Positions 1,777 to 5,744 of a stretch of 64,000 bases of DNA are shown here, piece by piece. Location of the stretch: positions 47,182-111,181 of the forward strand of contig NZ_NXIB02000001.1 of assembly GCF_002412335.2 (NCBI RefSeq), written 5' to 3'. Under the pieces are notes generated by a model. That model worked only from the letters and a program-made list of their open reading frames with translations. It was not told where the DNA came from and did no database searches. This DNA is from Tychonema bourrellyi FEM_GT703 (GTDB taxonomy: Bacteria > Cyanobacteriota > Cyanobacteriia > Cyanobacteriales > Microcoleaceae). Each line of letters begins with the position of its first letter. Positions within the stretch are counted from its first letter, which is position 1. The position numbers and the translations under genes are program-made.

Positions 1777-2634
1777 TCATTTGTGAAATTGAGCAAGCTG
1801 TCTATCATTAATAACTTTTCTCAAATAGTCAAAGTCTGGATCAGTTGTGAAACAACTCATCTGTTGAATAATGGCTTGACCATAAGCACTAAAGTAGTCC
1901 TGTCTTTCCACTAAGCCACTAACAGACTCTATAAGTGGTTCTAAAAATGTTTTGACACTATTCTTTTGGTCTAATAGGTGATAAAAGTAAACAAGAACTG
2001 TGGCAACACAGGCTGCATGAAAAGCTCTGTCTAATGGTCTAGGAATTCGCTTTATTGCAGACATGACTAGGGCTTCTTGCTCATCTAAGTTTTCTTTATT
2101 TTTATAGAGGCCATAAACGGCCTCACCTAAAAATAAATTTACGTGCATGAACTCGTGCAAAATTGATTCTACATAAGTTTCAACAGCCCAATGTTCACCA
2201 GGAGTAATCCAGATAACTCCGAGAACGTGAGATGAAGTTCCCGACCCACCTCCCTTATTTTCTTTGAGTGGAGATTTTATGAAAACAATGTCACTAATCA
2301 AGATACGAAGCATTTCAAACAATCTTGAGTCTATTTTTTGAATTAATAGCAATGATTGTTTAAAGTTGTCTTTTATGGGAGCTTCTTCGTCCGGTGTAAA
2401 CTCCTCAATAAACCCGAATCCACTATTCATAAATGCTTCTTGAGTTCTGGAAATTCTCCTTGTGCCAAAAGATATCAACGGCAGATCTGCTAATGTAAGA
2501 TTACTTTTTTGAATCTGAGATAACTGAATAGTAAAGAGTTCTTTTAAGTTCTTCTGGCATGGTTTAATTCCAGAATTAGCATGGACAAATTTTAAAACAT
2601 TGGTAACTGTGTGAGGTAAGTTTAGAAAAAACAT
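1777..2634 (-). CDS. HExxH-motif protein, probable aKG-HExxH-type peptide beta-hydroxylase (RiPP-like)
   Basis: A 285-residue soluble protein with HEFMH at 160-164, preceded by a glycine/serine-rich loop and SSHVLGVIWITPG (134-146) and followed by IPRPLDRAFHAACVA (197-211). The pattern of HExxH, then RPL and a further His (His206) in a helix, matches the HExxH domain of enzymes that hydroxylate peptide side chains with iron and 2-oxoglutarate in RiPP pathways, rather than a classical zinc peptidase. A strong ribosome binding site (AGGAGAG) lies 5-6 bases before the ATG. It is the last gene of a reverse-strand operon behind two very small acidic peptide genes, which are its likely substrates. 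No radical SAM partner or transporter is seen nearby. Fold assignment is fairly sure; substrate and chemistry are inferred. Confidence 0.7.
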   Translation of the reverse strand: MFFLNLPHTVTNVLKFVHANSGIKPCQKNLKELFTIQLSQIQKSNLTLADLPLISFGTRRISRTQEAFMNSGFGFIEEFTPDEEAPIKDNFKQSLLLIQKIDSRLFEMLRILISDIVFIKSPLKENKGGGSGTSSHVLGVIWITPGEHWAVETYVESILHEFMHVNLFLGEAVYGLYKNKENLDEQEALVMSAIKRIPRPLDRAFHAACVATVLVYFYHLLDQKNSVKTFLEPLIESVSGLVERQDYFSAYGQAIIQQMSCFTTDPDFDYLRKVINDRQLAQFHK

Positions 2635-2742
2635 TTCGCTCTCCTAGTGTTTAGATATTATGGTGATTTTGAATGATTCTCAAGTCAACAAGGAAGTAGG
2701 ATATTTCACTCCCTTGTTAACCTTTTTATTCAAGAACTAGAA

Positions 2743-2895
2743 TTAGGTAGTAGGAGCCCATTCTTGCTCTGCCATGTAGTTGGCAATTGATTCTTGTGCA
2801 GCTTGAGAATCACGATCAACTTCTGTTGCCATGCTCTCAAGTAAATCGTCAATGTCTAACTCTTCTTTTACGGAATTGGCTTCGTGTTGAGACAT
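2743..2895 (-). CDS. Short acidic peptide, candidate RiPP precursor (50 aa)
   Basis: A 50-codon gene starting MSQHEANSVKEELDIDDLLE and ending AEQEWAPTT. It has a very good ribosome binding site (GAGAGGTGAG, about 4 bases before ATG), which is the main reason to believe it. The first two thirds are acidic and helix-prone, as in many leader peptides; the end is a short EWAPTT tail. The 64-aa peptide just upstream carries a similar EWTSSTT stretch, so EW(A/T)xxTT may mark a shared recognition or modification site. It lies 108 bp before the HExxH enzyme on the same strand. I do not recognise the family. Role as a precursor is inferred from size, operon and enzyme type. Confidence 0.65.
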   Translation of the reverse strand: MSQHEANSVKEELDIDDLLESMATEVDRDSQAAQESIANYMAEQEWAPTT

Positions 2896-2984
2896 AACTC
2901 ACCTCTCTAAATTAATGTGTTGGTTTTGCTGTTGGTGTTGGATTGAGTTATCCCACACTATCTACTATCTAGTGCGAGAGAAGA

Positions 2985-3179
2985 TTAGCTATCATCAGAA
3001 TCGTCATCATCTGATGACGAACTTGATGAAGCAGATAAACTACCGCTTGCTGCTGCCGCCGCTGCTTGCGATACAGCCGCTGTTGTTGAAGAAGTCCACT
3101 CTGTATCGCCGACTTCTCCATTTCGCTGTTCTATGTGTTCTGTGCGTTCGCGATCGTATCCTTTATATTCTTCAGGCAT
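2985..3179 (-). CDS. Short Ala/Ser/Asp-tailed peptide, candidate RiPP precursor (64 aa)
   Basis: A 64-codon gene with a strong ribosome binding site (AAAGGAG, about 8 bases before ATG). Residues 1-28 are charged (starting MPEEYKGYDRERTEHIEQRN) and lead to GDTEWTSSTT. Then come a seven-Ala run, a serine run and a terminal tract made only of Asp and Ser (DDDDSDDS). This leader-plus-low-complexity layout suits a modified peptide; Asp is a known target of peptide beta-hydroxylases, so the Asp/Ser tail is the most obvious substrate. It is the promoter-proximal gene of the three-gene operon and starts 117 bp from the AGCTCAC box cluster. Not a recognised family; no cysteines, hence not a lanthipeptide. 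Confidence 0.6.
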   Translation of the reverse strand: MPEEYKGYDRERTEHIEQRNGEVGDTEWTSSTTAAVSQAAAAAASGSLSASSSSSSDDDDSDDS

Positions 3180-3275
3180 TACAGTTACTCCTTTTGTATT
3201 GAACTGAGTGTCGGGAAGTTTTTACTTAACTTTGCTTCCCACATTTCTAATATCTCAGATACCAATTCGCTTGGC

Positions 3276-3395: not shown

Positions 3396-5744
3396 ATGGT
3401 TGATTCTCTGAAGGCATCAGAAGATGGGCTAAAAATCGTTGACGAAGCTAGACGCAGGAAACGCTGGCAGAAAAATTCTTTAACATGGGTACAAGAAGCC
3501 AAGACCTCAGAAGCCACACTAAAACGGTTTTGGGCGAGAAAATTTTTCATTGACCGATTTGCCTTTATTGCAATTTGTAAGGCTGTAGGTGTTAACTGGG
3601 AAGAGATTGCTGAACCCAGCGAAATTCAAGAAACAGAGTTACCTGTGGTGTCTACCGTAAAGGCACATCCCTCAATACCAAACCAGAATTTTGTGGGACG
3701 GGACAAGGCGATCGCATCCCTCAACACCCATATCAACCAAGGCGCAAAAATCATCGTCATCCAAGCCCCCGGCGGTGTCGGAAAAACCACATTGGCCCAC
3801 GAATATCTCAACTCTCAGGGTTTTGACTTAGTGCTAGACCTCCCAATGGCCAAGGAAAAAGATAATATTCAACTTGTCGATAGTGTAATTGAAGGATGGC
3901 TGAAACAAGACTTTGAGGAAGAACCAGGGCGAGAGTTTTGGGAGATGTTGCGGCGGCTGAAGCGGCAACTTCAAACTCGCAAAATAGGTATCTTAATTGA
4001 TAACTTAGAACCCGCACTAGATGGACAAGGCAGATTTATTGAACCCCATCGCCGCTATGTTGAATTATTGCGAGTTTTGGCCGATCCAACAGTGCAGTCT
4101 GTGACGCTGATAACCAGTCGCGTTCGTCTGTGCGAACCTGATGTAAATGTTGCTCACTATTTATTGCCGGGATTGAATGAGCCAGCGTGGCAGCAATTTT
4201 TTATGAGTCGCCATATTAATATAGATATTCCCACACTGAATGCGATGAACAAAGCCTATGGAGGAAATGCGAAAGCAATGGGTATCCTCTGCGGTGCAAT
4301 TCTAGAAGATTTTGATGGAGATATGGTAGCTTATTGGCGGAATAATAGTGGCGATCTGTTGGTTAAGGCTGATTTAGAAAACTTAGTAACCAGTCAGTTT
4401 CAGCGCCTCCAAGAACTTAACTCAGAAGCCTATCGACTCCTCTACCGTTTGGGATGCTATCGCTATCAGGATGTGCCGACTGTCCCGACTGAGGGATTAT
4501 TGTGTTTGTTGTGGGATGTGCCAGAAGGACAGCGCAGACGAGTTATTGAATCTTTGCGAAATCGTTCTTTGGTAGAGTTTAATAATGGAGAATATTGGTT
4601 GCATCCGATGATTCGGGCTGAGGCGATCGCGCGTTTGAGAGCAAGTGAAGATTGGGAAGAGGCAAATCGCAAAGCAGCAGAGTTTTGGACGGATAGTGTT
4701 AAGACAGTTGAAACTGTAGAAAATCTACTGAAGGCTTTTGAGGCTTACTATCACTATGTACAGATTAATGACTTTGAACAAGCTGGCTCTGTAATTGTGA
4801 GAAGGAGAGATGGCAGCAGTTGGAGAAACGGAGAATCTCTGGGAAGGTCATTTTATAGGTTAGGCTTGTTACAACCCATGATTTACTCAATTAATTCAAT
4901 TATTAACCAAGTTAAAACCGATTATATACTGAGCATACTGTATAATATTTTAGGAGTTTTCTACTGGCTAAGTGGAGGTATAAATGCAGCTATAGAATGT
5001 CACAACTTATCATTTAAAGCAGCGGAACGCACCCTTTCATCTATTAACTTAAGCCCTTCAATAGATTTTTATGCAAAAAGGCGGAAAACTTGGTCTTTAT
5101 TTAATACAGGGCTTTGTAAAATTGACTTGTGGGAACTTGAAAAAGCTGTCATTTTTTTTCAAGATATAGAATTTATTTGTAATTCTAAAAATTCAGAAAC
5201 TGGTTTATATGAAAATGAAAAAGACTATTTATATTGTTTGGCATTTTTGAACTCATGTTTGAGATTTAAAGAAACCGCCATGAGTTATGCACAACAAGGC
5301 GAAGTAGTGATTCATAAAATAGATAGTAGTTATTGGAGTCAAGGATATAGCTTATTGTTTATGGGCCTAACTTATAAAAATTTAGGAGAATTTGACAAAT
5401 CTTTTGAAATGTTCCGCCAAGCGATCGCATTTGCCGAAAAAACTCACTACACTCAGGTTAAGGCTAAAGCTTTAACTGGTTTAGCAGAGCTTTATCGAGA
5501 ACAATCCGATTTTACAACAGCACGTTTCCATCATTCAGAATCGATCGCACTTCTAGAGAAAATCGGCGCAAAATGCGATCTAGCTGAGGCTCATTATCAA
5601 TTTGCCTTAACTCACCAAAAGATGGGTGATGCCGAAAAGAGTCAGACTCCGTTTCAAGAGGCGATTCGACTCTTCACTGAAATGGAAGCACCGAAGCAAG
5701 TTGAGAAAGTCCGAAAAGCCATAGGTAAGATTGATGAAATTTAG
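3396..5744 (+). CDS. STAND-type NB-ARC ATPase with HTH-like N-terminus and C-terminal TPR repeats
   Basis: A 782-residue signalling ATPase. Residues about 25-75 (TSEATLKRFWARKFFIDRF, then CKAVGVNWEEI) look like a small helix-turn-helix domain of the Cro/C1 kind. The NB-ARC module begins NFVGRDKAIASLN (98-110), with P-loop APGGVGKTT (124-132) and Walker B GILIDNLEP (198-206), then the winged-helix part near 340-420 (LLYRLGCYR, WLHPMIRAEAI). Residues about 480-775 are TPR-like helices, clearest from EFDKSFEMFRQAIAFAEK onward. STAND proteins switch from closed to oligomeric when the TPR sensor binds a ligand; bacterial members act as transcription regulators or phage-defence sensors. No toxic effector domain (TIR, nuclease, protease) is fused, which favours regulation. 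It is divergent from the HExxH peptide operon. Confidence 0.75.
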   Translation: MVDSLKASEDGLKIVDEARRRKRWQKNSLTWVQEAKTSEATLKRFWARKFFIDRFAFIAICKAVGVNWEEIAEPSEIQETELPVVSTVKAHPSIPNQNFVGRDKAIASLNTHINQGAKIIVIQAPGGVGKTTLAHEYLNSQGFDLVLDLPMAKEKDNIQLVDSVIEGWLKQDFEEEPGREFWEMLRRLKRQLQTRKIGILIDNLEPALDGQGRFIEPHRRYVELLRVLADPTVQSVTLITSRVRLCEPDVNVAHYLLPGLNEPAWQQFFMSRHINIDIPTLNAMNKAYGGNAKAMGILCGAILEDFDGDMVAYWRNNSGDLLVKADLENLVTSQFQRLQELNSEAYRLLYRLGCYRYQDVPTVPTEGLLCLLWDVPEGQRRRVIESLRNRSLVEFNNGEYWLHPMIRAEAIARLRASEDWEEANRKAAEFWTDSVKTVETVENLLKAFEAYYHYVQINDFEQAGSVIVRRRDGSSWRNGESLGRSFYRLGLLQPMIYSINSIINQVKTDYILSILYNILGVFYWLSGGINAAIECHNLSFKAAERTLSSINLSPSIDFYAKRRKTWSLFNTGLCKIDLWELEKAVIFFQDIEFICNSKNSETGLYENEKDYLYCLAFLNSCLRFKETAMSYAQQGEVVIHKIDSSYWSQGYSLLFMGLTYKNLGEFDKSFEMFRQAIAFAEKTHYTQVKAKALTGLAELYREQSDFTTARFHHSESIALLEKIGAKCDLAEAHYQFALTHQKMGDAEKSQTPFQEAIRLFTEMEAPKQVEKVRKAIGKIDEI

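Follow-up and report, generated by a model that had tools for sequence, protein, structure and literature searches.

A cyanobacterial iron oxygenase that probably hydroxylates a short peptide encoded just upstream

Introduction

The aKG-HExxH enzymes have been recognized as oxygenases only recently, and the characterized ones considered here work in clusters together with other unusual enzymes. Characterized members perform beta-hydroxylation of His, Asp, Phe, Gln and Pro (PMC13060819, PMC12636437), and two of them, PflC and PosC, also cut the peptide backbone oxidatively (PMC12636437). RiPP clusters with an aKG-HExxH enzyme are already known. In the window (the whole stretch of 64,000 nucleotides of Tychonema bourrellyi FEM_GT703 that was analysed), such an enzyme is free-standing and encoded behind two very small genes. 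On sequence grounds, this operon is apparently an aKG-HExxH RiPP system with the oxygenase as its sole modifying enzyme.

Results

Operon and Surroundings

The operon consists of three minus-strand genes for products of 64, 50 and 285 amino acids (Table 1). The original prediction assigned a strong ribosome binding site to each of them, and the coordinates and Shine-Dalgarno matches agree with this: a match of at least 5 nt is found at all three genes, compared to a background of 5.7% of the ATGs in the window. It also holds that both peptides are devoid of cysteines and that neither a radical SAM enzyme nor a dedicated exporter adjoins the operon.

Table 1. Features of the operon and its divergent neighbor (positions in the window).
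Feature	Position	Strand	Basis
Free-standing aKG-HExxH oxygenase, 285 aa	1777..2634	-	TIGR04267, AF2 model, invariant residues
Shine-Dalgarno AGGAG, enzyme gene	2641..2645	-	Sequence
RNA hairpin, 17 bp, in the gap between precursor and enzyme genes	2682..2723	-	z -3.5 vs. shuffles
Likely precursor, 50 aa; ESIANY as leader motif, ..MAEQEWAPTT as C-terminal core	2743..2895	-	Position, leader-motif score
Shine-Dalgarno GAGGTG, 50-aa gene	2900..2905	-	Sequence
Acidic peptide, 64 aa, encoded first in the operon; runs of Ala and Ser, DDDDSDDS tail	2985..3179	-	Shine-Dalgarno, Ser codons
Shine-Dalgarno AAGGAG (6-nt match), 64-aa gene	3188..3193	-	Sequence
NB-ARC/TPR protein, 782 aa, divergent neighbor	3396..5744	+	Pfam NB-ARC and TPR

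The surrounding genes encode Uma2 (two copies), NB-ARC/TPR, RNase PH, Adk, CobO, EamA and BrnT/BrnA proteins. A Uma2-type protein (1062-1706) matches the PADLOC candidate PDC-S17 (E 4e-45). According to the gene annotation of the window, no exporter, processing protease or immunity gene adjoins the operon. An exporter and/or a protease is common in RiPP clusters, although not obligatory.

The NB-ARC/TPR gene was considered as a part of the pathway. It belongs to a multi-copy family in related genomes, and these relatives adjoin unrelated genes; hence, a link to the operon is unproven. The N-terminal ~88 residues of the protein vary among the relatives, while the remainder is ~90% shared. In two genomes of the same genus, genes for a WelO5-like 2OG oxygenase/halogenase and an AlaX-like protein lie beside an NB-ARC/TPR relative and occupy the place of the HExxH operon (L062:2503-4018; L064:3354-4875).

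Identification of the Enzyme

As claimed from the sequence, the 285-aa protein contains HEFMH (residues 160-164), followed by RPL (199-201, in R199-P-L-D202) and His206. It has no match in Pfam, but scores 60.1 bits (61.2 in the genome search) against the NCBIfam profile mod_HExxH (TIGR04267, IPR026337; aKG-HExxH-type peptide beta-hydroxylase), the curated cut-off of which is 40 bits. This cut-off is also passed by six homologues. An AlphaFold2 model, built from an 11-sequence alignment, has a mean pLDDT of 87.5. Comparison of this model with aKG-HExxH structures, as had been proposed, gave the HExxH domain of ChlBH (ChlH, 8s5f) as the top match (Z 23.4, 246 aligned residues, rmsd 3.1) and SjiH (22ob) as the second (Z 20.4). 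Both are far ahead of the next row and the unrelated folds (Z 8.1 or less).

An ordinary zinc metallopeptidase, with small reading frames beside it by accident, would also explain the HExxH motif, which is common to zincins, and weak structural matches to peptidases do exist. In Foldseek, these are marginal: zinc peptidases occupy ranks 6-9 with E 0.08 or worse, versus E 1.8e-9 for ChlH. Moreover, the aKG-HExxH profile is passed, the pairing of peptide and enzyme is conserved (see below), and the alignment with aKG-HExxH oxygenases extends to the C-terminal His region, contrary to the refuting case of the original prediction, an alignment only with zinc peptidases that lack this region. In a profile comparison with a cyanobacterial protein that fuses rSAM and aKG-HExxH, HExxH and RPx5H (RP...H206) pair with HEHRH and RPPSGLLH, respectively. 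Six residues (H160, E161, H164, R199, D202 and H206) do not vary in the homologue alignment (A3). A peptidase is therefore extremely unlikely. Judged by profile, modeled fold and conserved active-site residues, the protein is a member of the aKG-HExxH family, which bears out its initial description as peptide-hydroxylase-like.

Distribution of the Enzyme

The enzyme is uncommon in its own cyanobacterial order, being present in six of the 391 genomes, the window genome counted. The closest of the others (genome G528) is 35% identical over its full length, and the other genomes of the same genus that were searched contain no relative. A single-sequence scan of the genome contigs returned no relative of the enzyme; the contig scan succeeded with a tighter alignment, the first one being too divergent. 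Outside the cyanobacteria, homologues occur in Nocardia (L016) and Streptomyces (L017, L030), on plasmids of Staphylococcus and Acinetobacter (L018-L020), in many Bacilli (L021, L023-L038) and in phage SPbetaL1 (L022). The last was obtained from a separate phage record, as the scan of viral contigs gave no relative. Phylogenetically, the window enzyme falls in a clade with four actinobacterial/G528 enzymes (support 99/97), the peptides of which mostly end in MMGGWT.

Several of these loci have features of their own. In the Bacillus phage SPbetaL1 (L022:4747-5831), a 66-aa peptide gene and an HExxH enzyme gene lie 5 nt apart, both annotated as hypothetical only. In the Streptomyces NBC_00690 homologue (L017:5775-6855), RQAVH replaces HExxH, the core reads MGCGTE and a radical SAM gene lies downstream. 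Cytobacillus/Bacillus copies (L021:5721-6408; L036:4959-5789; L038:5710-6324) share an identical 41-aa precursor, with the enzyme frame split in L021 and shortened in L038. Finally, in cyanobacterium G067 (L041:2855-5014, L007:94-957), the gene of a different aKG-HExxH enzyme is preceded by several tandem genes for ~45-aa peptides (MFxNHKLLGFxxL...).

Precursor Peptides

In every homologous locus with enough upstream sequence, an ORF of 29-91 aa lies directly upstream of the enzyme gene. Most of these peptides share an N-I-x-x-(F/Y) motif, and a leader motif of this type was found in 19 homologous precursors, whose cores differ. In Bacilli, NIxxY/F is followed by cores such as PLRMQIH, VMQLHDE and MQIHDE. 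The precursors of Nocardia, Streptomyces NBC_00249 and G528 carry MMGGWT at or near the C-terminus. Core repeats are visible in Cohnella (LLKMKIHE) and in cyanobacterium G231 (KFVMxxAD); duplicated cores are frequent in RiPP precursors. By sequence, a small putative precursor gene beside the modifying enzyme is thus conserved across genomes, as in RiPP clusters. The original prediction would have been refuted by small frames that are not conserved beside homologues; instead, the small-frame-plus-enzyme pair recurs across phyla. Of the three-gene set that it proposed to look for, the exact trio was found only in the window, whereas the pair of a 50-aa-like peptide and the enzyme is conserved.

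The 50-aa peptide ends in QESIANYMAEQEWAPTT. Its leader motif ranks 5th among the 458 short ORFs of the window, with a modest shuffle p of 0.012. The core lacks MMGGWT, its pairwise similarity to the precursors with MMGGWT does not, taken alone, reach significance (p 0.16-0.19), and a search for relatives in 99 related genomes gave chance-level matches only. Because of the leader motif, the hairpin described below and the position of the enzyme in a clade whose homologues accompany MMGGWT peptides, the 50-aa peptide is likely the substrate of the enzyme.

The gap between the 50-aa and enzyme genes folds into a hairpin with a 17-bp stem (z -3.5 against shuffles). Among the homologous peptide-enzyme gaps folded, 16 out of 20 reach z <= -2, the one of the window included. 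In a control set, this is the case for 7 of 24 other co-directional gaps; these originate mostly from Bacilli loci, and several of the seven adjoin the same systems. The hairpin is conserved by position but not by sequence, the gap sequences being unrelated. A stem that separates an abundant precursor from a scarcer enzyme is a known layout of RiPP operons, and the hairpin likely sets the ratio of precursor to enzyme.

The 64-aa Peptide

In the 64-aa ORF, the poly-Ser run uses mixed codons (AGT, TCT, TCA, TCG, AGC), a pattern that fits a genuine protein and not a repeat at the nucleotide level. This protein-level coding, the good Shine-Dalgarno site and the shared operon suit a role as substrate or second substrate, the acidic tail of which would become rich in hydroxy-Asp and perhaps bind metal. 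Two precursors are present in some RiPP clusters, e.g., PesA1/A2 (PMC13060819), and family members can beta-hydroxylate Asp, according to PMC12636437, which cites Morishita 2024. Such a role is nevertheless rather unlikely. The leader motif is absent (rank 246 of 458 short ORFs), no relative better than E 0.04 was found in 99 related genomes, and the likely cores of the homologous peptides are not Asp-rich tails. Furthermore, the EW(A/T)..TT stretch said to be shared with the 50-aa peptide was rejected as chance, as ~60% of shuffles align as well. With neither relative nor motif and a likeness at chance level, the predicted hydroxy-Asp-rich, metal-binding product is left unsupported. The candidate roles of the 64-aa peptide are those of a second substrate or an accessory.

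Partner Genes in Related Loci

In Bacilli loci, an MFS transporter often adjoins; the window operon lacks one. A pentapeptide-repeat protein, also lacking here, is encoded beside all three MMGGWT loci (L016:6860-7717; L030:6862-7638; L084:5146-5754). The Nocardia and Streptomyces proteins are 38-40% identical, and the G528 copy is ~25% identical to both. Pentapeptide-repeat proteins can protect gyrase (McbG, Qnr), and, by analogy, those beside the MMGGWT loci could possibly confer immunity. Their matches to Qnr-family profiles are weak, falling far short of the cut-off. As cyanobacteria have many pentapeptide-repeat proteins, gyrase protection is a lead only.

The absence of these partner genes next door, the lack of a same-genus relative in the genomes searched and the visibly broken state of some Cytobacillus homologues could indicate the remnant of an acquired cluster, in decay and without a product any more. 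Against this, the reading frames, catalytic residues, Shine-Dalgarno sites and hairpin of the window operon are all intact, and a remnant is considered very unlikely.

Discussion

The cyanobacterial iron oxygenase probably hydroxylates the short peptide from the gene just upstream, as far as sequence and model indicate. The favored reading, with a probability of about three in four, is that of a minimal pathway of the RiPP type, in which the enzyme would recognize the leader of the 50-aa peptide and oxidize its C-terminal stretch. The peptide would be produced in excess over the enzyme, the expression of which the 17-bp hairpin would damp. The Fe(II)/alpha-ketoglutarate oxygenase, with its zincin-like fold, would recognize the leader segment around ESIANY and oxidize at least one residue of the C-terminal MAEQEWAPTT, most likely by beta-hydroxylation; substrate, site and type of oxidation are here deduced, and which residue is oxidized cannot be predicted from sequence. 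A generic protease and an exporter, presumably encoded elsewhere in the genome, would be needed. Of the minimal pathway suggested originally, the aKG-HExxH enzyme with its conserved adjacent peptide gene is supported, while the Asp-tailed 64-aa peptide as the source of the product is not.

Oxidative trimming of the C-terminus, as in PflC, may also occur. Backbone scission near the C-terminus instead of mere hydroxylation would yield a shortened, amidated peptide, as with PflC/PosC; it has been seen for two family members acting on a C-terminal ARMD motif (PMC12636437), and no protease gene adjoins the operon. The 50-aa peptide, however, has no ARMD-like motif, and PflC-type clusters also contain an MNIO fusion and transporters, so that cleavage has a rather small chance of being the main activity.

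The peptide-plus-enzyme pair is present in actinobacteria and Bacilli, on plasmids and in a phage. As far as can be deduced from the genes, this spread suggests that minimal pathways for ribosomal peptides form a family that is largely undescribed. In the literature searched, the coverage of which was limited, with most subscription journals outside it, no sole free-standing oxygenase with such precursors, a hairpin and a multi-phylum spread was found, nor anything on such a precursor family, on SjiH or on HExxH proteins with pentapeptide repeats. A bolder proposal is that free-standing oxygenases with N-I-x-x-(F/Y) leaders form a separate, widespread class of sole-oxygenase RiPPs on chromosomes, plasmids and an SPbeta-type phage, in which the pentapeptide-repeat protein of the MMGGWT branch gives self-immunity of the McbG/Qnr type; the product would therefore target DNA gyrase. 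As a whole, this is quite unlikely. The MMGGWT branch, a possible gyrase-directed one, is the closest to the window. Found in several phyla and on mobile elements, the two-gene pair of precursor and oxygenase would be the simplest setting for learning how aKG-HExxH enzymes choose their residue, and it supplies test cases that are easy to express.

Among the known systems, ChlBH (Morishita 2024; 8s5f) resembles the window enzyme in its aKG-HExxH fold (Z 23.4) and HExxH motif, and in acting on a ribosomal peptide, as proposed here. In ChlBH, on the contrary, the HExxH domain is joined to a radical SAM enzyme that forms a cyclophane, and it depends on this cyclophane, while the window enzyme is free-standing, without such a partner. 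PflC/PosC of the Pseudomonas pfl/pos clusters are also free-standing aKG-HExxH enzymes that act on a small precursor in its C-terminal portion; their clusters differ by a long nitrile-hydratase-type leader, an MNIO-nitroreductase partner, transporters and the ARMD motif (PMC12636437). PesO of the nitrilobacillins is likewise a free-standing aKG-HExxH hydroxylase with small precursors, but these are other precursors and PesO is one of several modifying enzymes, including an MNIO and an AS-like nitrile synthetase (PMC13060819). Finally, BipH/BpmH of the biphenomycins are aKG-HExxH tailoring hydroxylases in a RiPP cluster, and the bip cluster has an MFS transporter, like several of the homologous Bacilli loci; in comparison with the window enzyme, they perform a late tailoring step in a cluster centered on radical SAM and MNIO enzymes (PMC12707348, PMC12257519).
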